A stretch of 64,000 nucleotides of DNA from Acidobacteriota bacterium (GTDB lineage Bacteria; Acidobacteriota; Terriglobia; Terriglobales; Acidobacteriaceae). The DNA is taken from NCBI GenBank assembly GCA_021792795.1, contig JAJYUB010000008.1, positions 1 through 64,000 on the forward strand, read 5' to 3'. The translations under genes and the position numbers were made by a program. Positions 8,813 to 54,115 of this stretch are shown here, in pieces. Every line of letters begins with the position of its first letter. Position 1 is the stretch's first letter. The notes beneath the pieces are model-generated. The model did no database searches, had not been told where the DNA came from, and saw only the letters and a program-made list of their open reading frames with translations.

Positions 8813-9415
8813 TCATCTTTCTGGAGGCTGGTTCCAGGGAGCCTCGTTCCATCGGGCCACGACAACGGTCACGAGTTCGTCCAGAGTTTGCCCGGTGGTG
8901 TCGATGGTCCAGTCCGCCATCTCATACAGCGGGCGTCTGCGTTGAAACCGTTCCGTCAACTCCGCGCGTTTTTCAAGGACCGGACGCCGAACGGCGTTTC
9001 GTTCCAACTTTTGTTGCTCACAGCGCTCAATCAGTACCTCCAGCGGCGCTTCGAGATACAGCAACAGGGTCTCGCGATCCTGCTGGAGCAACTGCCGGTT
9101 GGCCGCAGTTTCGATGGCGCCGCCGCCGAGCGCCAGCACCACGCTTTCGAGGTCTAGGGCCTTGGCCAGCGCATTCCGCTCCAATGCGCGGAAGCGGTCT
9201 TCTCCGACGGCCTCGAAAATTTGCGCGATGCTTCTTTGTTCCGCGCGCACAATCTCGTCATCCAGATCGATAAAGTCCCATCCAAGTTGCTGGGCCAAAC
9301 GAGGTCCCAACGCGCTCTTGCCAGCTCCCATGAATCCGGTCAGGACAACGCGTTTGGGCAAAAGAATCCGGTTGATCTTTGAGCGTGAAGTGATAAGAAC
9401 GGGCGCCTCCAGCAA
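8813..9415 (-). CDS. aroK: Shikimate kinase
   Basis: The enzyme phosphorylates shikimate at the 3-hydroxyl in the pathway to chorismate. Visible motifs are Walker A GFMGAGKSALG (residues 27-37), the shikimate-binding DLDDEI, the Arg-containing FR.LE segment, the Gly-rich ALGGGAIE and an Arg-rich lid (RRPVLEKRAELTERFQRRRPLY). At 200 residues it is slightly longer than usual because of about 20 extra N-terminal residues. The first in-frame start is a TTG without a clear ribosome binding site, so the true start may be internal. pheA elsewhere in the window is the only other aromatic gene seen, and the two are not linked. Confidence 0.93.
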   Translation of the reverse strand: MLEAPVLITSRSKINRILLPKRVVLTGFMGAGKSALGPRLAQQLGWDFIDLDDEIVRAEQRSIAQIFEAVGEDRFRALERNALAKALDLESVVLALGGGAIETAANRQLLQQDRETLLLYLEAPLEVLIERCEQQKLERNAVRRPVLEKRAELTERFQRRRPLYEMADWTIDTTGQTLDELVTVVVARWNEAPWNQPPER

Positions 9416-9478
9416 TCTTGGCTGGATTTTAAACGAGAAGCGCCTCCCTTAACGGATAAGTTTCCGTACCGGAGCGGG

Positions 9479-9742
9479 TCAGGAACTCTTGTTGTCATCT
9501 TTCGCCTGCCGGGCAAGCGCGTTTTGAATGTTGTCCCAAACCGCCGGACTGGGATCGTGGATGGGCAGCAGCAATTTTGCCTGCGCGGCGATATATTCCA
9601 GATCGCGCACCAGCGAGGAGCAGTTTTCGCAGGTCTGCAAATGCGCATGGGCGAGAAGGTCCCGGTCGGAATCGAAGAGCTCCGGCAATTGGCGCTGGAA
9701 TTCGTCGCAATCTCTGGGCGTGTGGGTCCGGTCGGATGTCAT
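9479..9742 (-). CDS. Zinc-finger anti-sigma factor
   Basis: This 87-residue soluble protein contains HLQTCENC, the H-x3-C-x2-C zinc motif of ZAS-type anti-sigma factors, with an upstream Cys in [13 protein letters not shown]. It has no membrane segment, so it would act in the cytoplasm, possibly responding to oxidation or thiol stress as RsrA-type proteins do (inference). Its ATG overlaps the TGA of the ECF sigma gene (ATGA), the classic arrangement for a sigma factor and its cognate inhibitor made in matched amounts. Confidence 0.88.
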
Positions 9743-10422
9743 GCCTGTACCTTCCCGTCCGCGGGTTGACGCAGCAAATTGCGCAGGCGCATGCGGGCTT
9801 TGTGGAGTTGAGATTTGCTGTTGCCAATGGAGCACTTCAGCATTCCTGCAATTTCATTGTGCTCATAGCCTTCCACATCGTGCAGCACAAATACCATGCG
9901 ATAGCCCGGCGGCAACTCTTCCACCGCCCGCTCCAGCGTCACACGATCGATGCAGCCTGAAAGCGTCAGGTCGCGGGCGCCAAAGTCTTTGCGAGGGCCA
10001 TCTTCCTGGGAGGGTTCCAGCGTTTCCTCCAGGGAGACCAACGGAAGACCTTTCTTGCGCAGATGCATCAGCACCACGTTGACGGCCATTCGATGCAGCC
10101 AGGTGGAGAAAGCGGAATCGCCGCGAAATGTTGCAATCTTGCGGTGCAACTGCAGAAATGCCTCCTGGGTCAGGTCTTCCGCCTCTGCCACATTGCCCAG
10201 CATGCGCAGACACAGCGAGTACACGCGACGCTTGTGCATGTTGTAGAGAACCTCAAAGGACGCGCCATCGCCTTGCTGGGCCTGGGCAATGGCCGCCAAT
10301 TCTCCGGCAATGGGAGGATTGCGCCGCCGCTGCTGCTGCACTGGCCTGGCTTCGGCGGTAAGTGGTTGTGCGGGGGTGGGGGAGGGTGCCTTCCCGGCAG
10401 TTCGCAGTGTGTTTTTTGTCAT
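9739..10422 (-). CDS. RNA polymerase ECF-type sigma factor
   Basis: The 227-residue product has region 2 ([20 protein letters not shown], then [15 protein letters not shown] and [11 protein letters not shown]) and region 4 ([10 protein letters not shown]-like [18 protein letters not shown], then [27 protein letters not shown]). It lacks region 3, as ECF sigmas do. About 50 N-terminal residues rich in Pro, Ala and Gln precede region 2. It is followed by its probable zinc anti-sigma factor with a 4-base overlap. A GGAA..TCTCA arrangement upstream on the minus strand could be a self-recognised promoter, but the match is weak. The regulon is unknown. Confidence 0.93.
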
Positions 10423-10540
10423 GGAACCAGAGTGCGTTCTGCCTTTTCCTGAGACTTTGTTGGAATCTTCCGTAGTCCTTGCATTGACGGCTCCGTGTCT
10501 TTGATGACGATGGGGTCGTGGGAGTTGCCTCGGCGGAAAC

Positions 10541-11584
10541 TTAACTTCCTACAAAGCGCGCATAAAGACTGCGTGCCAGCCCAACGTCTGTTGTCCCTTG
10601 AACAATGGCGCGACCGTCCTTAAATACCGTGATGCGATGTTCGCCATGATCGAAGCGCAAAAGCATGTCATTTCGCCGGACGGCGCCGTGGGATTGCAAT
10701 TTGCGCTCCAGTTCAGCAAAGTCGATGGGGCGATGGCGCTCGTGAATCTGGACCGAGTTTCTGCCGCACAATGTGATCTGGGGGCGCCCTACGCCGGCAA
10801 GATGGGGAAATTGGTGCTGGCCGCACACCGCGCAATGCGGGCGCGGATGGGAGGTGTCGATTTCGGAAATCTCATTGGACCACACGTCGCAGGAAAAAAG
10901 AGTCTGTCGCATCCGGTCGTGGGCGCCGACGATCCACTTAATCGCTTCCACCGCTTCCAAGGAAGCGGCCAGGTTCACCGCCGCATTCAGAATGCCGCTG
11001 GTGTCGCAGGTCTCGACCATGCCGGAGGGTGGCCCAGGGAAGATGCAGGCCAGGCAGGCTGTGGTGCCGGGCAGGATGTTCATGGTGACGGCGTAGGAGC
11101 CGACTGCCCCGGCATAGATCCAGGGCTTGTTCTGTTCGACGGCATAATCGTTCAGCAGGTAGCGGGTCTCAAAATTGTCGGTCGCGTCCAGAACCGGTTG
11201 TGCGTCTGCGAGGATGGCATGGATGTTGGCTGGGACCAGGTCCGCGACGTGGGCATGGACCTGGGTCTGGCTATTGAAACGAGCGATTCTGCGCCGGGCC
11301 GCCTCGGCCTTCGGCAGACCCTCCGCAGCATCCTCTTCCTCAAACAGCACTTGACGCTGTAGGTTGCTCCATTCCACGTAGTCGCGATCGATCAAAGTGA
11401 GCGTGCCGACTCCGGCGCGGGCCAGCAGACCCGCCACGGCGGCCCCGGTCGCTCCGCAACCGACGATGGCGACGTGGGCAGCGAGGAGTTTCTGTTGGCC
11501 TTGCTCGCCAATGCCTGCGAACAGGACCTGGCGGGAATAACGGTCCTGAGCGGAAGAGAAGAGCGGAGTGGAGGCCAGAGGCAT
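10541..11584 (-). CDS. ThiF/MoeB-family adenylyltransferase (E1-like)
   Basis: The protein has the E1 adenylation domain: [15 protein letters not shown], the nucleotide loop [36 protein letters not shown] and DATDNFETR. Two Cys pairs (CLACIF and CAVCGQ) should bind structural zinc. Such enzymes activate the C-terminal Gly of a ubiquitin-like sulfur carrier (ThiS or MoaD). A C-terminal extension of about 80 residues follows ([12 protein letters not shown]), which is not a rhodanese domain. The window also contains a MoaD-MoaE fusion, a possible distant partner, but the two are 18 kb apart. The start [11 protein letters not shown] is chosen because it directly precedes the conserved region; the ribosome binding site GGAGGGG is unusually close. 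Confidence 0.87.
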
Positions 11585-37844: not shown

Positions 37845-40385
37845 ATGCGCTGGACAATTGAGAGGCTGCGCCTGGCAATCATCGTGGTGGCGGTGGTGTT
37901 GCTGGTGTCCATCGTAGGCTCGATTTTTTACGGACGCTGGCGGCTTCGCCAGATTGCCCAGGACCTGCCGGGCCGTCTGGGAATCCAGATCCAGCAAACG
38001 ACGCAAGGGTTTGTGCGATTCAGCACAGAGGGCGGCCGCAGGGTCTTTACGCTGCATGCGGCGCACGCGATCAGCTACAAAACGGGCGGGCGGGTGATGC
38101 TGCACGACGTTGAAATCGACATGTACAACCGGCAGAACGACCAGGCCGATACCATCGCCGGAAAAGACTTTGAATACGACCAGGACAGTGAGGTTGTGAT
38201 TGCGCAGGGGGAGGCGCACATCGTTCTGCATTCGCCCCCTCCGGCTCATCCGACATCCGCAAAGAACGCGGAACCGCAGACCATTCACATTACGACGCAC
38301 GGGCTGGTTTTCAACCAAAAAACCGGCGAGGCGACGTGCAGCGGGGAAGTGGATTTTCAGTTTTCAAAATCCACTGGCAAGGCGTTGGGCGCGCAGTATT
38401 TCTCGAAAACCGGGCAATTGATCCTGGAGTCGCAGGTGGTGTTGACGACCCAGATGCAGGACCGTTCCGCGATTGTGCATGCTTCGCATGCGATCTACGA
38501 CCGTCAAGCAGCGCAAGTTCATCTGTTGGAGCCGCGGTACCTTTCCAGCGGTCCCAAGGGGGATGAGCATGGCAGCGCGGGAATGGCAACGATATTTCTA
38601 CGGGCGGACGGTTCGGCAGAAAAGATGGATGCGCAGAATGCGGTGGAGCTGGCCTCCGCCGACGGGACGGGCATACGGTCGGCTGCAATGCAGGTGCATT
38701 TGGACGAACAAAACCAGCCGCAGCAGGCGCATTTTTTGGGCGGCGTACAGTTGACGCAGAATCAGCCGACACAGCAGACGGTCGGAGGCGGGCGTCAGGC
38801 CGTCGTCGACTTTGACGCGAACGGCCACGCCAAGCTGGTCACGCTGGATGGCGAAGTGAATTTTCAGCAGCAGATCGATGCGGACAAGGACCAGCTCCAT
38901 CGCACACTGGCGGCGAACCACCTGGTGCTGCATCTGCGGCCGGGGCAGAGCGGGCCAGTGAAGAACGGGAAAGCGCAGAGCGGCCCGGCGCAGTTGCAGG
39001 AGGCGGAGGCGACCGGCGGCGCGGTGTTTACTTCGCGGAATACGGTTGCGGGTCATCCCGCGCAGGCGACCAGTCTTGCCGCGCGGACGTTGAAGGCGAG
39101 ATTTGTACCCGGAAATGAAATACAGCATCTCGATGGCGTTGGGCAGACGCGGATGCGCATGGTCGCACCCAATGGAGACATCGATACGAGTACCGGAGAT
39201 GTGCTGGCGATCGATTTTGTGACTGGCATGCCAATCGCAGCCGCCGTACCCCATGGCGGGCCGAATGCAACCAATGGCCAATCGATACGATCGGCGGTGC
39301 AGACGGGGCACGTGGTGCTCGATCAGACCTCGGCAAGAAAGACTGGCGCCGCAGGCACGGATGGCGGCCCGCAGATCTCTACCGCGACTGCGGCCCGAGC
39401 AGAGTATGACGGCGTGAACGACACCTTGACGCTGACCGGCGAGCCTGTCTTTCGCGATGCCAGCCTGGAGATGACGGCCGAACGATTCGAAGTGCAACGT
39501 GCGGCTGGAAAAATGCTGGCGACCGGTGGGGTGCAGACGACCGCTTATTCGGGCAATCCGTCGCAGGCGGCGCTGGGGGGGCTGTTGAGCGGAAACCAGC
39601 CTACGCACGTGATTGCCCGGCAGGCGCTGTTGCTGCACGATGCACAGAAGGCCATCTTTACCGGGCAGGCGCGGCTTTGGCAGGGAGGCAATTCCGTGGA
39701 GGCGCCGGTGATTGAGATGTCGCAAAAGATGCAGACGCTGACTGCGTATAGCAACGGGCCCTGCACGGAGTGCGTCCATACCGCGTTCCTGGGTCAGTCG
39801 GCGGGGCCTGCGCAGCAGGGCAGACAGAAGACATCGAAAGCCGGCGAGTCGGGCAATCGCGAACATGACAGTCCCGAAACTGCCAACCGGGAACCTTCGA
39901 CATTTCGTGTGTTGAGCGGACGGCTGCTGTACTCGGATGCGGAACGGAAGGCCAGCTTCTCCGACCACGTGGAGGCGATCAGTTCAAGCGGCAATGTTTT
40001 TGCGGACCAGGCGGAAGTGTTTCTGACGCCCGCGAGTCCTCGTTCCCAGGCGAGGCCAGGGGCCGCGTTGGCGGCAACTGAGAAAAAAACAGCGCCCCAT
40101 AGCAACAATTCACCGCAATCTTCCGTTGAAAGGATTGTCGCCACAGGGCATGTCGTGCTGGAGCAGCCGGGGCGGCGCGGAACCGGGACCCGGCTCGTGT
40201 ATACGGCGAGTGACGGCCATTTCGTGCTGACCGGAGACGGCGCCAACCCTCCCCAGGTGGTGGACTCGATCCAGGGGACCGTGACGGGGCAGGTTCTCAC
40301 GTTTTCCTCGCGGACACAGGCGATAATAGTAAGCGGAACATCCAACGATGCAGCAGTGACCAAGACCCGGGTGCAGAAGAAATAA
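37845..40385 (+). CDS. LptC-LptA fusion, LPS transport periplasmic bridge
   Basis: The 846-residue protein starts with a membrane anchor (about residues 8-29, [20 protein letters not shown]) and an LptC-like domain ([30 protein letters not shown]). It then continues as a chain of OstA/LptA-type beta-jellyroll repeats up to the C-terminus (for example [21 protein letters not shown] and [20 protein letters not shown]). This suggests an inner-membrane-anchored protein that carries LPS along the periplasmic bridge, replacing separate LptC and LptA. A low-complexity segment near residue 660 joins modules. Its TAA overlaps the ATG of lptB (TAATG), which supports the role. Confidence 0.85.
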
Positions 40386-41113
40386 TGCAGCGACTGACAA
40401 CCGACCAACTGGCGAAAAACTACCGCGGACGGCAAGTGGTGCGAGGGGTCTGCCTGGAGATCCACAAGGGAGAAGTGGTGGGGCTGCTGGGGCCGAATGG
40501 CGCGGGGAAGACCACGATCTTCTACATGATTGTCGGCCTGGTCGAGCCGGACTCTGGGCGGGTGCTGGTGGGCGACCGTGACATTACGCAGTTGCCCATG
40601 TATCTGCGGGCCCGCAATTTCGGCATCAGTTACCTGCCGCAGGAGCCATCGGTTTTTCGCAAGCTGACGGTTGAAGAAAATATCCTGGCCGTGTTGGAAG
40701 TGCAGCCCGGCGGATGGCAACAGCGGCGGGCGCGCATGGAGCGGTTGATTGAACAGTTGAGCCTGGGCCATGTAAGGAAAACGCGCGGCTATGCACTCTC
40801 TGGCGGGGAGCGCAGACGGGTGGAGATTGCCCGGTGCCTCTCGATCGAGCCGAATTTCATTCTGCTGGACGAACCTTTTTCCGGAATCGACCCGATTGCC
40901 GTGCATGATTTGCAGGACATTATTTTCGATCTGAAGGCCAGCGGATACGGCGTTTTGATTACGGACCACAACGTGCGCGAAACGCTGACGGTCACCGACC
41001 GGGCCTACATCATCAACGAGGGGAAGATTTTTCGCGCTGGAACACCGGAAGAACTCGGCCAGGACCAGGAAGTGCGGCGCGTGTATCTGGGCGAAGGCTT
41101 CACCCTGGGCTAG
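40385..41113 (+). CDS. lptB: LPS export ABC transporter ATP-binding protein
   Basis: The 242-residue ATPase has Walker [10 protein letters not shown], the Q-loop region [18 protein letters not shown], signature LSGGERRR, Walker [14 protein letters not shown] and a switch histidine in ITDHNVRET. The LPQE.S.F.KLTV..N wording and the C-terminal YLGEGF are diagnostic for LptB, which drives LPS extraction with LptF and LptG. No lptFG genes lie in the window. It is translationally coupled to the lptCA fusion by a one-base overlap. Length is normal. Confidence 0.95.
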
Positions 41114-41485
41114 GTCGATTCAGGCCCGAACGTAATGTTGACAGGCTCTATGTCCCTAACGGCCCTGTCGTCATCAAGGCCGGGTTCAAAGAAGGTTTGC
41201 CTATTGCTGGTCTTCTTGGCATGGATGGTTTCTTTGAGCATTTTGTTGTCACATTCAGATACACGGCCTTGGAGTGTGAGCTTGAGCGCGTCTATCAGAC
41301 ATAAAACAGAGATCTGAACCCCAACTGGCCCACCCCCAGCTAACGCTATAAGCAATTTGAGTGCAAATTCCCTAAGTTATACGTGACAAAGTAGATACGC
41401 GGCATTTCCTGCAATCTACCCATAGGAACGAGCCTTGCCCCATGTACACTGGGGTTAACTCTCCACGTCCAACTGGAATTCTGCC
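41114..41485. other. Intergenic region between lptB and rpoN
   Basis: These 372 bases are lower in GC than their neighbours. Two short open frames (81 codons minus at 41110-41355, 60 codons plus at 41135-41317) overlap each other, have no ribosome binding sites and match no family I know. The last 60 bases (GTACACTGGGGTTAACT) should contain the rpoN promoter. No terminator for lptB was recognised. Confidence 0.5.
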
Positions 41486-43309
41486 ATGGCCCTTCTTCAA
41501 CCCCGGCTCAATTTGAAAGTCTCGCAGAAGCAGATTCTGACGCCTGGACTGGTCCAGATGGTCAGCCTGCTGGCCCTGAACAAGCAGGAACTGAGGGAGA
41601 TGATCGATGCCGAGCTTCTAGAGAATCCCGTGTTGGAGGAACTGGAAGAGGCGGTGCCACTGGCGGAGGAGGTCCAAACCCCCGAGGAAGCGGTGCCGGC
41701 CGGCGAGGAAAAAGCTGAAGAGAAAGATCCGTTTGACGAGATCGACTTTGGCTCCTATTTCCAGGACTATCTGGATCCTGGTTATCGCACGCCGCAGAGC
41801 ACCGAGATCAACGAAAAGCCTTCGTTCGAGAATTTTCTCTCCAAGCCCACGACCCTGACCGACCATTTGATCTGGCAGCTGGGCTCGCTGCATTTGACGG
41901 ACGGAGTGCGTGAAGCTGCGGAGCTGGTGATTGGCAACCTGGATGAAGATGGATATCTGACGGCCAGCGATGACGAACTGCTGGCTGTGCTCACCCAGCA
42001 AAGGCCGCAGGAGCGGGCGGGCGTTACGCATGCCGGGGTCGCTTTCAACTCGAATGGCCATAAGGCATTCGTCGGCGTGCAGGCTGACAACGGACCAACT
42101 GAACTGCTCGGCGGGGCCGGGGCCCCGTCGAGCCATGACGCTTTGAATCGCGGGACGAATTCCATGCCCAGCGATGGTGGAAGCGAGTCCGACGGCCTGG
42201 CGCTACCAGAGGAACATTCCCCCACGTTGAAGCGGGACCTTGAAGAGGCGCTGCACATTGTGCGACGGTTCGATCCGGTGGGCATCGCGGCGCGGGATTT
42301 ACGAGAATGTTTGCTGACTCAGCTGGATGTGCGTTCACAGCAGGCCGGCGAATTGGCAGACGGGCTTCGGCTGGCCGCAGCCGCCGACGGCGGCGAGGAC
42401 GATCTGCAGGAGGGCAACGCGCCGCAGGCCGCTCTGCTTCCGGCCAGTCGTCAGAGCGATGCCGATCGGGCGGCAGCGGAGCGAATCCAGTCGGAAGCCA
42501 GCGCGGTCATGGCGCTGGCGCGGCGCATTATCGATGAGTTTCTCCCGCACCTGTTAAAGCGGGACATCCGTGAACTGGCGCGCATTACAGCAAGCCCGCA
42601 GTCCAGAGTGCAGTTGGCGATCGAGTCGATTCGTGCCCTCGACCCCAAGCCGGGCCAGCGGTATAACCGCGAGCAGGTGCGGCTGATCGAGCCCGATGTC
42701 GCCTTCCAGAAGCGCGACGACGAATACGTCATCCTGATCAACGATGAAGAGATGCCGACCTTGCGTTTGAATCAAGGCTATCGCCGCATGTTGAACCAGG
42801 AAGGCACAGAGCGCGAGGTGCGCGAGTATGTGAAGGAGCGCTATCGCTCTGCCATCCAGCTGATGCGCAACATTGAGCAGAGGAAGAACACGATCGTGCG
42901 CACCTGCGAGGTGATTGTGCGCCGCCAGCGCGAATTTCTGGAGCAAGGCATGGACTCGCTGAAGCCGATGATGATCAAGGACGTGGCCGAAGAGATTGGC
43001 GTCCATGCCTCCACGGTGAGCCGGGCGGTCGCCAACAAGTATGTGCATACGCCGCAGGGAGTGTTCGAGTTGCGCTTCTTTTTCTCCGAGGGCGTGAATG
43101 GCCCGGAAGGATCGGACACGCCGCTGTTGCTGCTGAAGCGCAAAGTGAAGAAGATGATTGAAGAGGAAAATTCCAGCAAGCCGCTGACGGACGATGCCAT
43201 CGCCCACCTGCTGCAATCGCAGGGAATTGCAGTGAACCGGCGCACTGTGGCCAAATACCGCGAGGACATGGGAATCCCCAGCACCCACCAGCGCCGCGTC
43301 CGCATCTGA
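41486..43309 (+). CDS. rpoN: RNA polymerase sigma-54 factor, with two insertions
   Basis: The N-terminal region I is standard (LKVSQKQILTPGLVQMVSLLALN), followed by an acidic region II. The DNA-binding end has the helix-turn-helix DVAEEIGVHASTVSRAVANKYV and the RpoN box NRRTVAKYRE. Two stretches break the core-binding domain: about residues 173-248 and 281-340, hydrophilic and low in complexity, which raise the length to 607 compared with about 480 in E. coli. The gene heads a normal rpoN-hpf-rapZ run. A perfect sigma-54 promoter and a sigma-54 activator lie about 5-9 kb downstream. Confidence 0.95.
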   Translation: MALLQPRLNLKVSQKQILTPGLVQMVSLLALNKQELREMIDAELLENPVLEELEEAVPLAEEVQTPEEAVPAGEEKAEEKDPFDEIDFGSYFQDYLDPGYRTPQSTEINEKPSFENFLSKPTTLTDHLIWQLGSLHLTDGVREAAELVIGNLDEDGYLTASDDELLAVLTQQRPQERAGVTHAGVAFNSNGHKAFVGVQADNGPTELLGGAGAPSSHDALNRGTNSMPSDGGSESDGLALPEEHSPTLKRDLEEALHIVRRFDPVGIAARDLRECLLTQLDVRSQQAGELADGLRLAAAADGGEDDLQEGNAPQAALLPASRQSDADRAAAERIQSEASAVMALARRIIDEFLPHLLKRDIRELARITASPQSRVQLAIESIRALDPKPGQRYNREQVRLIEPDVAFQKRDDEYVILINDEEMPTLRLNQGYRRMLNQEGTEREVREYVKERYRSAIQLMRNIEQRKNTIVRTCEVIVRRQREFLEQGMDSLKPMMIKDVAEEIGVHASTVSRAVANKYVHTPQGVFELRFFFSEGVNGPEGSDTPLLLLKRKVKKMIEEENSSKPLTDDAIAHLLQSQGIAVNRRTVAKYREDMGIPSTHQRRVRI

Positions 43310-43353
43310 ATGAATAGTTGGGTCAAACGAAACCAGACTCAGGAGGGACGTGG

Positions 43354-43953
43354 ATGGACTCCGAACTTAGTGGAAGAAACGTGACGGTCACGAAAGACTT
43401 GCGGGCCATGGCGGACGAAAGCCTGGACCGGATTGAGAAAATTGTGGGCCGAGGTTCCAGCGCTCGCATCGTTTTTCGTTCTCAGAAACATCTTTCGATC
43501 GCGGAAGTGACTGTGATTGCCCGCCAACACACTGTGGTTGGCGTGGCCGAGGCGCCAGACCTGACCATTGCCTTGCGGACGGCATTGGAAAAGACGGAGA
43601 AGCAGGCAATTCGCTGGAGAAAAAGCAAGATAGAAAAGAAGCGCCAGGCCAAGTCGATCAGCGCAGTTCTACCCGCGGTCCCTTCAGAAGGGACCGCTCC
43701 GGCGGAAGAGAAACCGCGCGCAGCGGCCGGCAGGAACGGAAAAGCATCGGTATCGGGGAAGAGGAAATCTTCTGGGGTGCATATTGTTCCGGCGCCGGAG
43801 GCGATGGCGCTGAGGCCCATGACCATTGAAGAAGCGGTGAAAGAGGCGGAGTCGGGCAATCGGCAGGTATTTGTCTTTCGCGATTTGGCGGGCGAGGTGA
43901 AAGTGCTGCATTGCGCGGGCGACGGATTGGTGCGGCTGACGGAAGTTTCCTGA
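43354..43953 (+). CDS. hpf: Ribosome hibernation promoting factor (long HPF)
   Basis: The 199-residue protein has the HPF/YfiA N-terminal domain (NVTVTKDLRAMADESLDRI, then VTVIARQHTVVGVAEAPDL) and a C-terminal dimerisation domain (RPMTIEEAVKEAE, QVFVFRDLAGEV, LHCAGDGLVRL). The two are joined by a basic linker. This is the long form, which makes 100S ribosome dimers in stationary phase. The ATG at 43354 has AGGAGGGA 8 bases upstream. It follows rpoN by 44 bases, the usual order, and rapZ follows after a 113-base gap that contains a TACAAT -10-like hexamer. Confidence 0.9.
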   Translation: MDSELSGRNVTVTKDLRAMADESLDRIEKIVGRGSSARIVFRSQKHLSIAEVTVIARQHTVVGVAEAPDLTIALRTALEKTEKQAIRWRKSKIEKKRQAKSISAVLPAVPSEGTAPAEEKPRAAAGRNGKASVSGKRKSSGVHIVPAPEAMALRPMTIEEAVKEAESGNRQVFVFRDLAGEVKVLHCAGDGLVRLTEVS

Positions 43954-44066
43954 CCCGTCGGACATTGCGAAGAATTTTGTCGTTTCTGGGACGCAATTTT
44001 AAACGTACAATCTTGGCTCACGCTCTGCATATCTGAAAAACTTTGCTGCGAAGCGGAAGAGGACCG

Positions 44067-45077
44067 ATGACGCGCACGGCTGGTAAGAAACGATTGAAGC
44101 CAATGACTGCGAAAGGGCAAACGGGAAAACCGCCAACCGATGCCGCTGGATTGATTGCGTCGAAACCCGTCAGATCCACCGCGGCGAAACGCGTTCGCAG
44201 CGCTGAAGCAAAACGGCCGCTGGCGGAAAACGAACTCGTCATTGTTACGGGGATGTCGGGTTCTGGAAAATTGTCGGCGCTGAAGGCGTTTGAAGACCTG
44301 GGCTATTATTCGGTCGACAATTTGCCGATCGACTTGATTCCCGCGTTTGCCGATCTGATCCGGCAATCTCCAGAAACCAACCGCGCCGCCCTGGTGGTGG
44401 ATGTGCGGGAGGGCTCGAACCTCGACCACTTTCCGGCGATTTTGCGCAAAGTGCGGCAGACGACCTCGACCCGGCTGCTTTTTCTGGAGGCTTCGGACGA
44501 AGCGCTGCTTCGGCGGTTTTCAGAGACCCGGCGTCCTCATCCGCTGGGCCGCATCGACACCATTCGGCGCTCGATCCAGTCCGAGAGGAAATTGCTGGAG
44601 CCGCTGCGCAACATTGCGGACGTCTGCATCGACACGACAAATTTCAATGTGCATGAACTGCGCGCCCATATCAACGGGCTGTTTCAGCAGGAGAGTGGCG
44701 AGAAGAACCTGCTGATTTCTTCCATCAGTTTCGGCTACAAGAACGGGGTGCCGCAAGAAGCCGACCTGGTCTTCGATGTGCGCTTTCTACCCAATCCGCA
44801 TTTCATCCCGGAGTTCCGTCCGCTGACCGGCCAGGACGAGAAAGTGGTGCGCTATATCAATCGTTTTCCGGAGACCAAAGAGTTTATTCAGAAGGTCCAC
44901 GATCTGCTTTTATTTTTGCTGCCGCATTACGTGCAGGAGGGTAAGAGCTATTTGAGCGTGGCGTTCGGCTGTACCGGCGGCCAGCACCGCTCGGTGATGA
45001 TCGCGGAAAAAATGCAGGCGCTGCTGCAGGCCGATGGATACCAGGTGAAATGTCTCCATCGCGACATGCCGCGATAG
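44067..45077 (+). CDS. rapZ: RNase adapter protein RapZ, with an unusual P-loop
   Basis: The protein has the P-loop ATPase N-terminal domain and the C-terminal RNA-binding domain of RapZ (YvcJ): VVDVREG, ETRRPHPL, ISFGYKNGVPQEADLVFDVRFLPNPH, and GCTGGQHRSV with conserved Cys, Gly and His. RapZ controls the glmZ-GlmS cascade in enterobacteria and has a nucleotide-binding role elsewhere. The Walker A reads GMSGSGKLSA, with Leu where Ser/Thr is expected after Lys, so ATP or GTP handling may differ. About 50 basic residues precede the P-loop. The ATG at 44067 has AGAGGA upstream; a later start (MTAKGQ) is possible. ptsN is missing from the cluster. Confidence 0.9.
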   Translation: MTRTAGKKRLKPMTAKGQTGKPPTDAAGLIASKPVRSTAAKRVRSAEAKRPLAENELVIVTGMSGSGKLSALKAFEDLGYYSVDNLPIDLIPAFADLIRQSPETNRAALVVDVREGSNLDHFPAILRKVRQTTSTRLLFLEASDEALLRRFSETRRPHPLGRIDTIRRSIQSERKLLEPLRNIADVCIDTTNFNVHELRAHINGLFQQESGEKNLLISSISFGYKNGVPQEADLVFDVRFLPNPHFIPEFRPLTGQDEKVVRYINRFPETKEFIQKVHDLLLFLLPHYVQEGKSYLSVAFGCTGGQHRSVMIAEKMQALLQADGYQVKCLHRDMPR

Positions 45078-48098: not shown

Positions 48099-49529
48099 TC
48101 AGTCCTTCAGCTTTTTGCGAATCTCAATATTCAATCGCTTAATTTTTTGATTTAGCGTGGATAGCGGAATGCGGAAGGCTTCCGCCGCGTCCGTCTGGTT
48201 CCAGTTGCAGTGCTCCAGCCGGTCGGTGATGATGCGTTTTTCGATTTCTTCCAAAATCTCAAATAACGATGCGTCTGGATTGTGATCGAGCAGACCCGCT
48301 TCGTAGCTGCGGCCGGTCAGGTGGTCGGGCAGCAACTCTTTCGGAATCGTCTGGTCTGTAGAGAGGACAACGCAGCGCTCAATGACATTTTCCAGCTCTC
48401 GAACATTGCCCGGCCACGAGTAATCAATCAAGGCGCGCATGGTTTCCGTGGAAATGGTGCGCAGCGGGAGCTGGTTTTCCTCGCAGAAACGCTTCAGGCA
48501 ATGCGCGACCAGCAGCGGAATGTCCTCTATGCGATTGCGCAGCGGAGGCAGGTCAATGGTGATCACGTTGAGCCGGTAAAACAGGTCCTCTCGAAATCGC
48601 CCCTCGCGCACGGCCAGGCGAAGGTCGGCATTCGTCGCAGCGACGATCCGCACATCTACCTGCAACTCCTGCACGCCGCCGACCAGCATGAACTTCCGGT
48701 CCTGCAGCACTCGCAGCAGTTTTGCCTGCGTGTCCAGTGCCATGGTACCGATTTCATCCAAAAACAGCGTGCCGCCATTCGCAATTTCAAACAGGCCCTT
48801 CTTCGATGCGATGGCGGAAGTGAACGCTCCCTTGACATGGCCGAACAACGTGCTTTCCAGCAGGTCGGATGGCACAGCGCCCGTGTGGACGGGGACGAAG
48901 GGCTTATCGCGGCGCGGTGAATGCGAATGGATCGCTTTGGCGATCAGCTCTTTGCCGGTGCCGCTCTCGCCCTGCACCAGCACCGTCGACCGGCTGGGCG
49001 CCACTTGACCGACCAGGTCGAGCACAGCCTGCATCGTTTCGCTTTTGCCGATGATGTTTTCAAAACTATAGCGCTGCTTCAGGGCGCGCTTCAGTTGGAT
49101 GTTTTCTGTTTCCGCGCGGTGCTGTCCAATAGCGCCGCGAATATCGGCCAGAAGCTTTTCGTTGTCCCAGGGCTTCTGGATGAAATTATTGGCGCCGAAG
49201 TGCATGGCTTCGACCACATTCTGCACCGTGCCATACGCCGTAATCATGATGACGGGAAGGTTTGCGTGCCGGGCGCGAATCGCCTGGAGAATCTCGAATC
49301 CGCTTTGACCTGGCAGAGCAAGATCGAGCAGCACCAGATCGAACACCGACTCTTCCAGCGCCTTCAAACCCTTGGCCCCATCGGGCGCAGTCGCTACCTC
49401 AAATCCCTCCAACTCTAACAGGAGTTGCAGCGATTCGCGGATGGCCGCTTCATCGTCAATGACGATGATGCGGAGCGGGAGGGTACTGTCGGCTTCTGGA
49501 GAAATACTTTCGTGCACAACCTCAGGCAT
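48099..49529 (-). CDS. Sigma-54-dependent response regulator, NtrC family (GAFTSA variant)
   Basis: The 476-residue protein has a receiver domain (IIVIDDEAAI, phospho-acceptor Asp69 in LVLLDLALPG, Lys in FIQKPWD), a sigma-54 AAA+ domain with Walker A GESGTGKELIA and Walker B GGTLFLDEIG, and a C-terminal Fis-type helix-turn-helix (NQTDAAEAFRIPLSTLNQKIK). The loop that contacts sigma-54 reads GAFTSA at 234-239 where most members have GAFTGA. It is transcribed after the kinase gene, overlapping it by 8 bases. A consensus sigma-54 promoter lies before the kinase, so this activator probably drives its own operon (inference). Confidence 0.95.
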   Translation of the reverse strand: MPEVVHESISPEADSTLPLRIIVIDDEAAIRESLQLLLELEGFEVATAPDGAKGLKALEESVFDLVLLDLALPGQSGFEILQAIRARHANLPVIMITAYGTVQNVVEAMHFGANNFIQKPWDNEKLLADIRGAIGQHRAETENIQLKRALKQRYSFENIIGKSETMQAVLDLVGQVAPSRSTVLVQGESGTGKELIAKAIHSHSPRRDKPFVPVHTGAVPSDLLESTLFGHVKGAFTSAIASKKGLFEIANGGTLFLDEIGTMALDTQAKLLRVLQDRKFMLVGGVQELQVDVRIVAATNADLRLAVREGRFREDLFYRLNVITIDLPPLRNRIEDIPLLVAHCLKRFCEENQLPLRTISTETMRALIDYSWPGNVRELENVIERCVVLSTDQTIPKELLPDHLTGRSYEAGLLDHNPDASLFEILEEIEKRIITDRLEHCNWNQTDAAEAFRIPLSTLNQKIKRLNIEIRKKLKD

Positions 49530-52371
49530 GAACGGGCTTCCTCAATTTAGGAAATTGCAGATGGAAGGTCGTGCCGTGGCCAACTTTGCTTTCCACCTGG
49601 ATCTTGCCGGCGTGTTCCTGAATAATGCCATAGCTCACAGAGAGTCCCAGGCCGGTCCCACGCCGCTGACCCTCAACCACGGCGGTTTTTGTGGTGAAAA
49701 ATGGATCGTAGATGCGGCGCAAATTTTCCGCCGCAATACCGGAGCCGGTGTCGCCGACGATCACTTCGACCTGTCCATTGTCGATGGTTTGCACGCGCAA
49801 TATGCCGCCGTCGGCCATCGCGTCCTTCGCGTTCAGAAAAAGATTCAGAAACACCTGCTGCAGCTTTCCCATATTGCCCAGGATGTCCGGCAGTTCCGGC
49901 TGCAAGTCAAGGTCGATGGCAATGTTTGCCGTGTTGAACTGATGCTGCAACAGCGCCAGCGTTTCCCGCAAAACGTGATTCACACTGACTGGTTTAAACT
50001 CGATGGTGCTGGTGCGCGAAAAATTCAGCAGGCTGTTGACGATTTCCGATGCGCGAAACGTTTGCTGCGTGATTTTGTCCAGCAGGGGCGCCGTCCGCTC
50101 GTCGCCGCGAATCTGCTTGGCCATCATTTGGGTATACGAAGAGATCACGGCCAGCGGGGTGTTTACCTCATGGGCGATACCGGCCGCCAATAGCCCGATC
50201 GAAGAAAGCTTGTCGGCCTGCATCAATTGGCTTTCCAGTTGCACCCGCTCGGTGATGTCGTCGACAAGAATGATACGGCCCACGGTGGTAAAGTCCTTAT
50301 CGACCAGCGGGGCAATCGTAATGTTGGCGTTGCGGATTTCTCCGGCACGGGTGGCAAGTTGGAATTTGTAGAGAGTATGGACGCCGTTTTCGTGTTTTAC
50401 GCGGTCGTACTCAGCCAGGAAATCCGCCGGAAATAAACTTGCCAGCGGCTGATTCAACGCTTCCGAACGCGGCACTGCGTACATGGATTCCATCTGCGCA
50501 TTCCAACTGTCAATACGGTCCGCGAGGTCGACTGCCAGAATGCCAATGTTGATGGACTCGACGATATTTTCATTGAATTCCTTTAGCTGCTCGTACTCGG
50601 CAATCTTTTCCTCGAGCCTGGCGTACAAGCGCGTGTTCTGGATCGCGATGCCGACATAGCTGGCCAGCGTTTCCAGCAACTCCACGTCCTCGCTGGAAAG
50701 GAAGTCCCCGTTCGTGGTGCGGCCCAGTCCCAGCACGGCAATGGTGCGTTGCTGTACGCGGCAGGGAAGGTAATAGTTTAGGTCCAACAAAGAGACGGCG
50801 CGTTGCTGACTTTCGGCCAGGTGGGGGGCATTTTGCGTGCTTTCCAGAAAGATGTGCGAACCGTCCTCGCGGCCGTCGAAGCGAAGAAATCCGGTATCAA
50901 GATCCTCGGTGCGATTGAGCGCCGGCGCTGGAATTCCATGACTGGCCGCCAGGCGAAACTTTGAGACGCGGTCGTCTCGCTCGTCGTCGAGGAAGACGCC
51001 AACCCGGGCAACCTGCAGGATGCGAGGCAGCCGGTCGACCAAGGCATTCAGCAACGCGCGCAGATCGGTTTGCGTATTCAGGCTGCGGGCAAATTCGACC
51101 AGGGTCGCACGAGAATCGAGCCGTTTGCGGTCGAAGACGCGGTCCACGCGGTCTTGAATGGCGCGCTTAATGGGATCGAACACCAGCGCGGCGATAATGA
51201 TCGCGGTTGCCAGGCCCCATCCGCCTGCCGCGGGCAATCTCTTATGCACCACTTCACCGGCAAACGCGACCGCGCCAAAGTAGATTGCGACCAGCGTTCC
51301 GGTTGCCAATGTGTAGGTCACGCCGCGTTTGAAGATCAGGTCCACATCCATCAGCCGGTAGCGCACAATCGCGTAGCTGAATGTCAACGGAAGGAAGACC
51401 AGGCACAAGACGCCGATCTGGCCAAGCAGCGTCGGGGCCGAGGCCCCGGCAAGGAGATAGGGAATCGCATAGAGCAGGGTGAAGGGGGTGACCGCGAGCA
51501 GGGTGCCGCGCGTCAGCCATTTCAGTTGCTGGCGCGTCAGCGGGTTGTCCGCCCGGCGATAGTTGATGAAGAACACCAACGCCGCCGCCACGTAATACAG
51601 TGCCATGTAGCCGATGGCGACCTGGTTCAATCGGTGAATCAGCAGTTCGGTCGCAGACCAGAGACGAATGGCGGCTATGAAGAGGCCAAGCACGGCAACG
51701 CCTGGAAGGTAGAGAAGCCACGCCATGCGGCGGCGCCGCATGGTCGGGTTATGCTCGGGGAAGGTGAAAGCGAAGTGCAACAAAAGCGCGGGCTGGGCGG
51801 TGCTGGCCGCGACGTTGCCCCAGAAAATGAACCAGTCGAACAGGTTCAGCTTTCCGGTGTAATTAAAGGCGTACAGAACGAAGGACGCCAGGCAGAAGAT
51901 ATAGAAGTGGACCGAGCGCGGCGCTGTCCAACGACGGAACAGAATGTACAGCCCTATCAGGAGGTAGACCAGCGCGATCAAGCGCAGGCCGACGTTGATA
52001 TTTCGGTCCGTCGGCTCCAAAATCACTGGAATCTGCTCCAGATGAATGCCGGAGCGAGTCACCGAATAGGTGGCTTTGGTCCAAATGCCGGTCGCAAACA
52101 GTTGCCGTTGCAGCGAGGCAATACGCAGTGTGCGATGGTTGTTGATTGCGGTGAGCAGGTCTCCAGCTTCGATGCCGGCACGATCGCCGGGGCCGTGGGG
52201 CAACACTTTTTGCGCGACCAGTCCGCCGGGGGCCTCTGCCCACCAGACTTGATCGGTAGGAACCTGAAACTGACTCTCGTGGCTGTAGTTGACCGATGCC
52301 AGAATGACGGCGGCCACCGTTAGCACTGCCAGCACGACTGCGGCGATTCGGAATGGGATGTTCCGCGGCAT
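49522..52371 (-). CDS. Sensor histidine kinase with PDZ, membrane, GAF and PAS domains
   Basis: The 949-residue kinase begins with a membrane segment (about residues 8-26). A PDZ-like domain follows at about residues 40-115, with GGLVAQKVLPHGPGDRAGIEAGD the diagnostic core in short form. About eight membrane segments span about residues 125-370. Then come a GAF-like domain (LRALLNALVDRLPRILQ), a PAS domain (ENIVESINIGILAVDLADRI) and the kinase core, with HisKA motif AAGIAHEVNTPLAVISSY (His about residue 734) and HATPase motifs (NLFLNAKDAM, DTGSGI, RGTGLGLSV). It should phosphorylate the NtrC-type regulator that follows. The PDZ domain would sit outside the inner membrane and may sense misfolded or unassembled envelope proteins. 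Confidence 0.92.
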   Translation of the reverse strand: MPRNIPFRIAAVVLAVLTVAAVILASVNYSHESQFQVPTDQVWWAEAPGGLVAQKVLPHGPGDRAGIEAGDLLTAINNHRTLRIASLQRQLFATGIWTKATYSVTRSGIHLEQIPVILEPTDRNINVGLRLIALVYLLIGLYILFRRWTAPRSVHFYIFCLASFVLYAFNYTGKLNLFDWFIFWGNVAASTAQPALLLHFAFTFPEHNPTMRRRRMAWLLYLPGVAVLGLFIAAIRLWSATELLIHRLNQVAIGYMALYYVAAALVFFINYRRADNPLTRQQLKWLTRGTLLAVTPFTLLYAIPYLLAGASAPTLLGQIGVLCLVFLPLTFSYAIVRYRLMDVDLIFKRGVTYTLATGTLVAIYFGAVAFAGEVVHKRLPAAGGWGLATAIIIAALVFDPIKRAIQDRVDRVFDRKRLDSRATLVEFARSLNTQTDLRALLNALVDRLPRILQVARVGVFLDDERDDRVSKFRLAASHGIPAPALNRTEDLDTGFLRFDGREDGSHIFLESTQNAPHLAESQQRAVSLLDLNYYLPCRVQQRTIAVLGLGRTTNGDFLSSEDVELLETLASYVGIAIQNTRLYARLEEKIAEYEQLKEFNENIVESINIGILAVDLADRIDSWNAQMESMYAVPRSEALNQPLASLFPADFLAEYDRVKHENGVHTLYKFQLATRAGEIRNANITIAPLVDKDFTTVGRIILVDDITERVQLESQLMQADKLSSIGLLAAGIAHEVNTPLAVISSYTQMMAKQIRGDERTAPLLDKITQQTFRASEIVNSLLNFSRTSTIEFKPVSVNHVLRETLALLQHQFNTANIAIDLDLQPELPDILGNMGKLQQVFLNLFLNAKDAMADGGILRVQTIDNGQVEVIVGDTGSGIAAENLRRIYDPFFTTKTAVVEGQRRGTGLGLSVSYGIIQEHAGKIQVESKVGHGTTFHLQFPKLRKPVHA

Positions 52372-52444
52372 TTTGAGGCTTATCTTTCCGCGTCAGAATG
52401 CCAAGGCCAATTGTGCGGTTTCTGATGCAGTGTACTTATGTTGT

Positions 52445-52459
52445 GCAACTTGCGTGCCA
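52445..52459 (-). promoter_or_regulatory. Consensus sigma-54 (-24/-12) promoter for the kinase-regulator operon
   Basis: On the minus strand the sequence reads TGGCACGCAAGTTGC, a perfect TGGCAC-N5-TTGC. The GG (-24) and GC (-12) elements have the required spacing. It lies about 74 bases upstream of the kinase ATG, leaving a leader of about 60 bases. This matches the sigma-54 consensus exactly, and rpoN and a sigma-54 activator are both in the window. Confidence 0.85.
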
Positions 52460-52680: not shown

Positions 52681-52726
52681 GTGGATGAATGCCTATCCAC
52701 AATTCTAAATCGAAATATATGATTTA
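52681..52726. promoter_or_regulatory. Inverted repeats, candidate activator-binding region
   Basis: GTGGAT (52681-52686) and ATCCAC (52695-52700) are perfect inverted copies with 8 bases between. A second pair, TAAATC (52706-52711) and GATTTA (52721-52726), follows with 9 bases between and overlaps the end of the glycerate kinase gene. They lie about 220-270 bases upstream of the sigma-54 promoter, the usual range for activator sites. The rest of the 352-base gap shows no gene. Confidence 0.35.
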
Positions 52727-54115
52727 TGGAATTTGCGGGCCAACTGTCGCCACTATTGGGGATTGCGGATTTCCCGCGATCAGGATTCGCAAATCGCGGA
52801 GATTGTTTCCCGAAGGCCCAATCATGATCGCAGCTTTTCGATCCACCAGGAAGGGATAGGCGTCGAATTCTTCCAGGGCTCGTGCGATTATGCCTGGATT
52901 GCAGCCTGCCAGGGTAGCGCGATCCACGACGGCGCCCGCGGCTGGGCTGTTGCCATCGATCCCGTCCGATCCGGCCGAAAGAATGGCCATTGGATCGTCC
53001 TCGGCCCGCAGCAGCGTTGCGGCATAGAGAGCAAACTGCTGGTTGCGTCCACCCAGGCCGATCATGGAGCCATGGCTGCTGTTTACCGGCAAACTCACGC
53101 TCACTTCGCCTGCCGATATCAAGCACACGTTCGGATACTCACCGCGCAACTTTCGCAGCCGGTCGAGCAAGTATTTTGCGGCGGCTTGGTATTCCCATTC
53201 ATCGCAGCTATTGTCAATCGCCGCAATATAGCCGCGCGCCTCGGCATTTCTGGCCGCAGCTTCGGCAAGGGTTTGCGCGCTCATCAGGACTGAAGCTTGC
53301 GCGTGCAACTCCCCAGACTTCGGCGTTTCTACCAGCGCATTGGATTCAAAAAAGCGCCGCACCGCAGCGGGGAACCGATCCCACAAACGATAGCGGTCGA
53401 GAACCCCTCTACATTCGCCAACCGTTGAGGAATCCGGGACGGTTGGTCCCGAACCCAGAGCGTCCTCGCATCCCGCCGGAACGTCGGAGACCAGCAGCGA
53501 TCGACAGATTGCATTGCCGGCGGCCAACGCCAGACGGCCACCTTTCACGGCGGAAAAATGCTTTCGAAGACAATTGATCTCTGCGATGGAGGCGCCGCTG
53601 CCGACCAGCGCTCGATGGAAGTTCACCGTGTCGGCCAGAGAGAGGGATGGGTCCAGCGGCAACTCCATCATCGCGGAAGCTCCGCCGCTGATCAGGAAGA
53701 AGCAGAGCGTCTTCTCGGGCGCGTCTTGTGGCAATTCCTTCAACATCGCCAATACCGCGCGTGCGCCCGCGAAAGAGGCTTCGTTGGGCGAGGGATGGCC
53801 GCCGGCAAAAACTTGAAAGCCATTGGGAAGCTGAGAGGAAAGCAGCAGCGAACCCTCTGGCGCGATCAGGACTCCAGCCAAATCGCAGTGTGCCGGCAAC
53901 GTTAGTTGCCGAAGCAACGCAAAAAGCATGGCGCGGGCGGCTTTTCCCACCGCTACAATTCTGATCCGCCGCATATCGTCCAGGTCGATCGACTCCTCGC
54001 CGACATGCAAGGTCTTACCGCGCACGGATAGGTGGCGAGCTACGGCCTGCTCCACGCTGCAGTCTGCCAGACTTTGGTCGAAGATGGTTCGTGCTACGTC
54101 CCGTAAAATTGTCAT
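52724..54115 (-). CDS. Glycerate 2-kinase, MOFRL/DUF4147 family
   Basis: The 463-residue protein begins MTILRDVARTIFDQSLADCS, contains IRIVAVGKAARAM, the Gly-rich LISGGASAMMELP, VSDVPAGCEDALGSGPTVPD, and ends with the MOFRL-domain motifs GGRNQQFALYAA and LSAGSDGIDGNSPAAGA. This is the layout of GckA-type glycerate 2-kinases of one-carbon and tartronate pathways. The start ATG at 54113-54115 is chosen because the family begins there; the longer open frame is shadow. It is transcribed 26 bases after the alpha/beta hydrolase gene. No other glycerate pathway gene was seen. Confidence 0.88.
   Translation of the reverse strand: MTILRDVARTIFDQSLADCSVEQAVARHLSVRGKTLHVGEESIDLDDMRRIRIVAVGKAARAMLFALLRQLTLPAHCDLAGVLIAPEGSLLLSSQLPNGFQVFAGGHPSPNEASFAGARAVLAMLKELPQDAPEKTLCFFLISGGASAMMELPLDPSLSLADTVNFHRALVGSGASIAEINCLRKHFSAVKGGRLALAAGNAICRSLLVSDVPAGCEDALGSGPTVPDSSTVGECRGVLDRYRLWDRFPAAVRRFFESNALVETPKSGELHAQASVLMSAQTLAEAAARNAEARGYIAAIDNSCDEWEYQAAAKYLLDRLRKLRGEYPNVCLISAGEVSVSLPVNSSHGSMIGLGGRNQQFALYAATLLRAEDDPMAILSAGSDGIDGNSPAAGAVVDRATLAGCNPGIIARALEEFDAYPFLVDRKAAIMIGPSGNNLRDLRILIAGNPQSPIVATVGPQIP

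Follow-up and report, generated by a model that had tools for sequence, protein, structure and literature searches.

A conserved sigma-54 promoter ahead of a kinase–regulator operon in Acidobacteriota, and its probable autoregulation

The stretch of DNA analysed here (the window, 64 000 nucleotides) comes from an acidobacterium of the class Terriglobia and carries on its minus strand the genes for a membrane histidine kinase and an NtrC-type response regulator, preceded by a sigma-54 promoter core and, further upstream, by a candidate enhancer (Table 1). An earlier note on this DNA had paired the kinase with an NtrC-type activator, and the Pfam and NCBIfam domains bear this out. Since the start codon of the regulator overlaps the end of the kinase frame by 8 bases, the two genes are very probably transcribed as one operon. 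The regulator likewise adjoins the kinase in almost all those Terriglobia loci for which enough sequence exists. The same note had stressed that rpoN lies in the window. The gene is indeed present, but RpoN is a trans-acting factor, and the proximity of its gene is no evidence for the circuit. The protein (607 amino acids) is seemingly longer than usual: the activator-interacting region and the core-binding region appear to be separated by an insertion. From 37845 to 45077, rpoN is found together with an LptC/LptA-like gene, an lptB-like ABC ATPase gene, an hpf-like and a rapZ-like gene (names given by sequence inspection), a cluster resembling the rpoN cluster of proteobacteria.

Table 1. Features of the locus and the basis of their assignment
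Feature	Coordinates	Strand	Basis
Sigma-54 promoter core (-24 TGGCAC, -12 TTGC)	52445..52459	minus	exact consensus and conservation
Predicted transcription start region	52431..52435	minus	about 12 bases past the GC element, inferred from sigma-54 promoter geometry
Candidate enhancer (UAS) TTCC-ATAAAT-CATA	52718..52731	minus	conserved block, 272 bases above the -24 element; putative binding site of the regulator
Membrane histidine kinase: TM helix, PDZ, several TM helices, GAF, PAS, HisKA, HATPase	49522..52371	minus	Pfam and AlphaFold2
NtrC-type response regulator: receiver, AAA+ (GAFTSA loop), Fis-type HTH	48099..49529	minus	Pfam and NCBIfam
rpoN, sigma-54 factor	41486..43309	plus	TIGR02395, 359.5 bits (cut-off 277); all three Pfam sigma-54 domains

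Read on the minus strand, positions 52459 to 52445 are TGGCACGCAAGTTGC, followed by A, and the 16-base core TGGCACGCAAGTTGCA occupies 52459-52444. All 10 specified positions of the -24/-12 consensus (TGGCAC-N5-TTGC) are matched, the GG-N10-GC spacing is correct and 74 bases separate the core from the ATG of the kinase (52371), in agreement with the earlier note. Sigma-54 promoters need an activator and start transcription about 12 bases downstream of the GC element. No known RNA element was found by Rfam in the region. By sequence alone, the exact motif does not rise above the chance level: it is the single exact match in the whole window; a search tolerating one mismatch gives 4 matches for 7.4 expected, and the 4.04 Mb genome has 8 exact copies, the other 7 mostly intragenic, against 10 copies of the reversed pattern. 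For want of enrichment, the exact motif was dropped as genome-wide evidence. Such counts would suit a 10-base consensus that had arisen by chance; this explanation, the probability of which we regard as negligible, is nevertheless refuted by orthologs, in which the promoter is kept at the same place down to about 35% kinase identity while controls stay near zero.

Kinase relatives were present in all 61 genomes searched, and 80 further loci were fetched. Of the nine members of the window's genus, eight have an identical TGGCACGCAAGTTGCA and all nine share the ten consensus bases; the intergenic sequence around the core has largely diverged among them. For the wider comparison, sites were scored with fixed weights set by hand from the consensus, a strong site in the Terriglobia scan being one that scores at least 12.2 of 14.2 and lies no more than 150 bases from the kinase start. 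Strong sites were found in 88 of 116 distinct Terriglobia ortholog upstreams (76%), compared to 6 of 466 (1.3%) upstreams of other ORFs in the same loci; being related, the loci compared do not count as independent observations. Within the class, the site was also seen in several further families, and some are without it. Full-length kinase relatives occur in most of the acidobacterial groups sampled, and outside Terriglobia a strong site exists at 37 of 55 loci, nearly always 20–115 bases ahead of the kinase, versus none of 55 on the antisense strand of the same stretches. A good site is missing from about 24% of the Terriglobia orthologs and from 18 of the 55 loci of other classes. It is thus position and conservation, not the sequence match alone, that mark the promoter as genuine, and its retention at loci of other acidobacterial classes makes the kinase–promoter arrangement ancient. 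Judged by these comparisons, the promoter is real, and most of the phylum Acidobacteriota has kept it ahead of this gene pair; the search for it in other acidobacteria, proposed in the earlier note, was positive in the family, the class and the phylum.

Above the promoter lie palindromes that are candidate binding sites for an activator. In Terriglobia the palindrome is TATG-N6-CATA, mostly 66–160 bases above the -24 element: it is exact in 20 of 109 ortholog upstreams (0.1 expected), and in the same 109 there are zero exact cases with a gap of 5 or 7. Of 12 Terriglobia genomes tested, 11 have a single copy of its AT-cored form, TATGRTTTTYCATA, and each such copy sits 66–156 bases ahead of the sigma-54 site of this kinase. 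When one mismatch was allowed, eight genomes gave at most two extra matches each; two of six extra sites (L184 and L185) have a possible sigma-54 site nearby on the same strand. One large group has a degenerate TTCC-N6-CRTA of the same geometry. The palindrome of the window genus matches by half only, with TTCC in place of TATG and the gap of 6 retained, and its distance from the promoter is far for an enhancer. It stands in a conserved block (about 52733 to 52701), is kept with small changes in nine of nine genus members and is the sole copy in the genome, even with up to one mismatch. In other classes, TCCA-N6-TGGA and TTCA-N6-TGAA were each found in 11 of 37 cases (0.2 and 0.25 expected, respectively), giving the general form TYCA-N6-TGRA, which by eye is often doubled at about 20–22 or 31–33 bases, i.e. 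two or three helical turns. Counts of a degenerate TYCAA-N4-TTGRA in these classes were set aside, being discriminating only when combined with a sigma-54 site.

Which protein reads these palindromes may be judged from the regulator itself. Its DNA-recognition segment, STLNQKI[KR]RL, is essentially invariant across the family, and other classes mostly have TTLNEK[LI]K. Recognition helix and palindrome change in parallel, as one would expect of a palindrome that is bound by the adjacent regulator. A competing explanation accepts the sigma-54 promoter as real and assigns its activation to a different enhancer-binding protein, which would make the operon a member of a cascade and not a self-regulated unit. 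The genome encodes 12 full-length sigma-54 activators, so another of them could act at this promoter, and several loci of other classes keep the site without an adjacent regulator. We nevertheless hold this to be quite improbable: a palindrome that is single-copy and found only here in 11 Terriglobia genomes is most simply read by the local regulator, and it shifts in step with that regulator's recognition helix. The adjacent regulator is the most economical activator because the palindromes are constant in geometry and unique to this promoter in those 11 genomes, and autoregulation by it, the circuit suggested in the earlier note, appears well supported. Taken together, that the site is the genuine sigma-54 promoter of the kinase–regulator operon and that this operon is positively autoregulated seems to us highly likely.

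The autoregulatory circuit would run as follows. A signal would reach the kinase, probably via its predicted periplasmic PDZ domain, and the kinase would phosphorylate the adjacent regulator; the latter would bind the upstream palindrome and, using ATP, open the sigma-54 RNA polymerase at 52445-52459, the output being more kinase and more regulator. The promoter, its conservation, the constant geometry of the palindromes and the domain make-up are computed parts of this model; we infer the phosphotransfer, the identity of the activator, the transcription start and the signal. One peculiarity of the regulator would count against the model. Its sigma-54-contacting loop is GAFTSA, not GAFTGA, in all 102 readable orthologs of its family within Terriglobia. 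GAFTGA itself, or a variant such as GSFTGA, occurs in other classes and in some families of Terriglobia. Since NorR with the corresponding serine keeps its activity, and partly escapes repression or is partly constitutive (PMC2941729), GAFTSA is compatible with activation and, by analogy, may set a leakier threshold. The loop deviates too in two other activators of the same genome, L121 and L122 (GAFTDA and a degenerate SALPGG); GAFTDA is the equivalent of the fully constitutive NorR G266D.

As to the input, AlphaFold2 (residues 1-430 of the kinase, mean pLDDT 81) predicts one helix of transmembrane length, the PDZ domain at about residues 42-117 and, besides these, several long helices that form a bundle. 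With one helix before the PDZ domain and more after it, a periplasmic location is the natural prediction. The best structural matches of the PDZ region are DegS, DegQ and HtrA. The PDZ domain of DegS, the sensor of sigma-E stress, reads the C-terminal ends of unfolded outer-membrane proteins; by analogy, the PDZ domain and the outer-membrane targets described below suggest a DegS-like input for the kinase. Unlike DegS, the kinase has no protease domain, and its output would be a phosphorelay to sigma-54, where that of DegS is anti-sigma cleavage.

Further candidate targets were found with the palindrome, mainly in one genome as far as receptors are concerned. Sampling of palindromes in other classes revealed four sites with a sigma-54 element 135–144 bases downstream, followed by genes for Oar-like TonB-dependent receptors; all four receptors have a carboxypeptidase-regulatory-like domain and three the PF25183 barrel, and in one case a gene for a small outer-membrane barrel intervenes. 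In genome G078, a strong sigma-54 site precedes 5 of 14 PF25183 receptor genes, and the same five alone carry the palindrome, 90–146 bases above that site (Fisher p=0.0005). A systematic receptor scan added one gene each in G113 and G131, the site in G131 being just under the threshold; as a second test genome, G131 gave no significant association at the threshold used, and its near-threshold gene has tandem palindromes. In other classes, Oar-like receptor genes with both TYCA-N6-TGRA and a sigma-54 site are those at L275, L276, L278, L280, L295, L297, L301, L309, L311 and L333 (the site of the last being just under the receptor-scan threshold). None of the 15 receptors examined in the genome of the window carries both elements, and in its lineage the operator–promoter module was found only at the kinase–regulator operon itself. 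A second link concerns lipid transport: in about 34 Terriglobia loci (L094, at 9019-10696, L103, L087, L106 and about 30 others) a gene for the mlaE permease (PF02405) follows the regulator on the same strand, usually succeeded by an mlaF-like ABC ATPase gene. This arrangement is absent from the window genus and from the Edaphobacter-like clade; no separate sigma-54 site is conserved before mlaE, and none was found at the mla locus of the window's own genome. Because receptors in other classes and mlaE-mlaF in many Terriglobia are tied to the system, it is probably an outer-membrane or envelope response.

Several known systems invite comparison. In its mode of working, ZraSR (HydHG) of Escherichia coli comes closest, likewise a membrane kinase with an NtrC-family sigma-54 regulator and a tiny, self-centred regulon: it directly controls little beyond its own operon and zraP, with a link to envelope stress (PMC7657598), and its autoregulation has also been stated elsewhere (PMC12316311). 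The present system is outside the ZraSR family. The NCBIfam equivalog cut-offs for ZraS and ZraR are missed (169 of 479 and 373 of 760 bits), the sensor differs by its PDZ domain, several transmembrane helices, GAF and PAS, and no zraP-like gene was seen beside the pair in the window. AtoS and AtoC are the best NCBIfam matches of the two proteins, but these equivalog cut-offs are missed by far (285 of 646 and 447 of 714 bits), and no ato genes were seen near the pair. The PrsK/PrsR pair of PEP-CTERM systems also consists of a GAF-bearing kinase and a sigma-54 response regulator, as does the present one; the regulator, however, scores 374 bits where the PEP-CTERM PrsR model (PEP_resp_reg, TIGR02915) demands 502.6, and no PEP-CTERM or exosortase gene was seen beside the pair. 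The literature searched contained no paper on sigma-54 control in Acidobacteria, and a broad survey of sigma-54 regulons found in it leaves the phylum unmentioned in its main text.

These data are best read as a sigma-54 system that amplifies itself, has a link to the outer membrane and extends across the phylum. A more specific version, which we offer as speculation and consider rather unlikely in its entirety, is surveillance of the outer membrane across the phylum: the periplasmic DegS-like PDZ domain would sense exposed C-termini of outer-membrane proteins and, via sigma-54, the system would adjust its own level as well as Oar-like TonB-dependent receptors and Mla lipid transport; in the lineage of the window, the regulon would have shrunk to one self-activating loop and the regulator would have gained a GAFTSA loop of the partly constitutive NorR kind. 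What the phylum offers is one conserved two-component system with a recognisable promoter, operator and candidate outer-membrane targets, so that envelope sensing in Acidobacteriota becomes directly testable. The phylum also provides a natural series: the operator varies jointly with the recognition helix, and the regulon that can be detected is small in one class and larger in others.

A further element of these upstream regions is the hexamer TATAAT or TATGAT, which 62 of 109 loci carry 45–100 bases above the -24 element, 39 of them at -57 to -61. In the glnA-ntrBC operon (glnAp1/glnAp2), a sigma-54 promoter drives the genes of its own activator and a sigma-70 promoter lies upstream. The present operon is alike in its self-driven sigma-54 promoter and, possibly, in an upstream sigma-70 promoter, and it differs by having no glutamine synthetase gene and by its sensor and operator. 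The recurrence of the hexamer would fit two promoters of this kind, TATAAT serving basal transcription from sigma-70 and the sigma-54 promoter serving amplification, which extends the model of autoregulation without contradicting it. We regard this as possible, with the balance tilting slightly the other way: a conserved -35 hexamer at the right distance is absent, TATGAT in the Edaphobacter-like group is part of the palindrome TATGATTTTCCATA, and the hexamer of the window genus is merely TAGAAT. TATAAT may mark a basal sigma-70 promoter or belong to an operator array. A regulon search with TTCCAAAAANCRTAG in eight genomes gave overall no more matches than the reversed control, and no second target was recognised. 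TTCCAAAAANCRTAG is the upstream flank of TATAAT at L081, L094, L103 and other loci, where the downstream flank is GGAAGT...ACTTAG and the hexamer stands at a nearly fixed distance, 57–61 bases above the -24 element.
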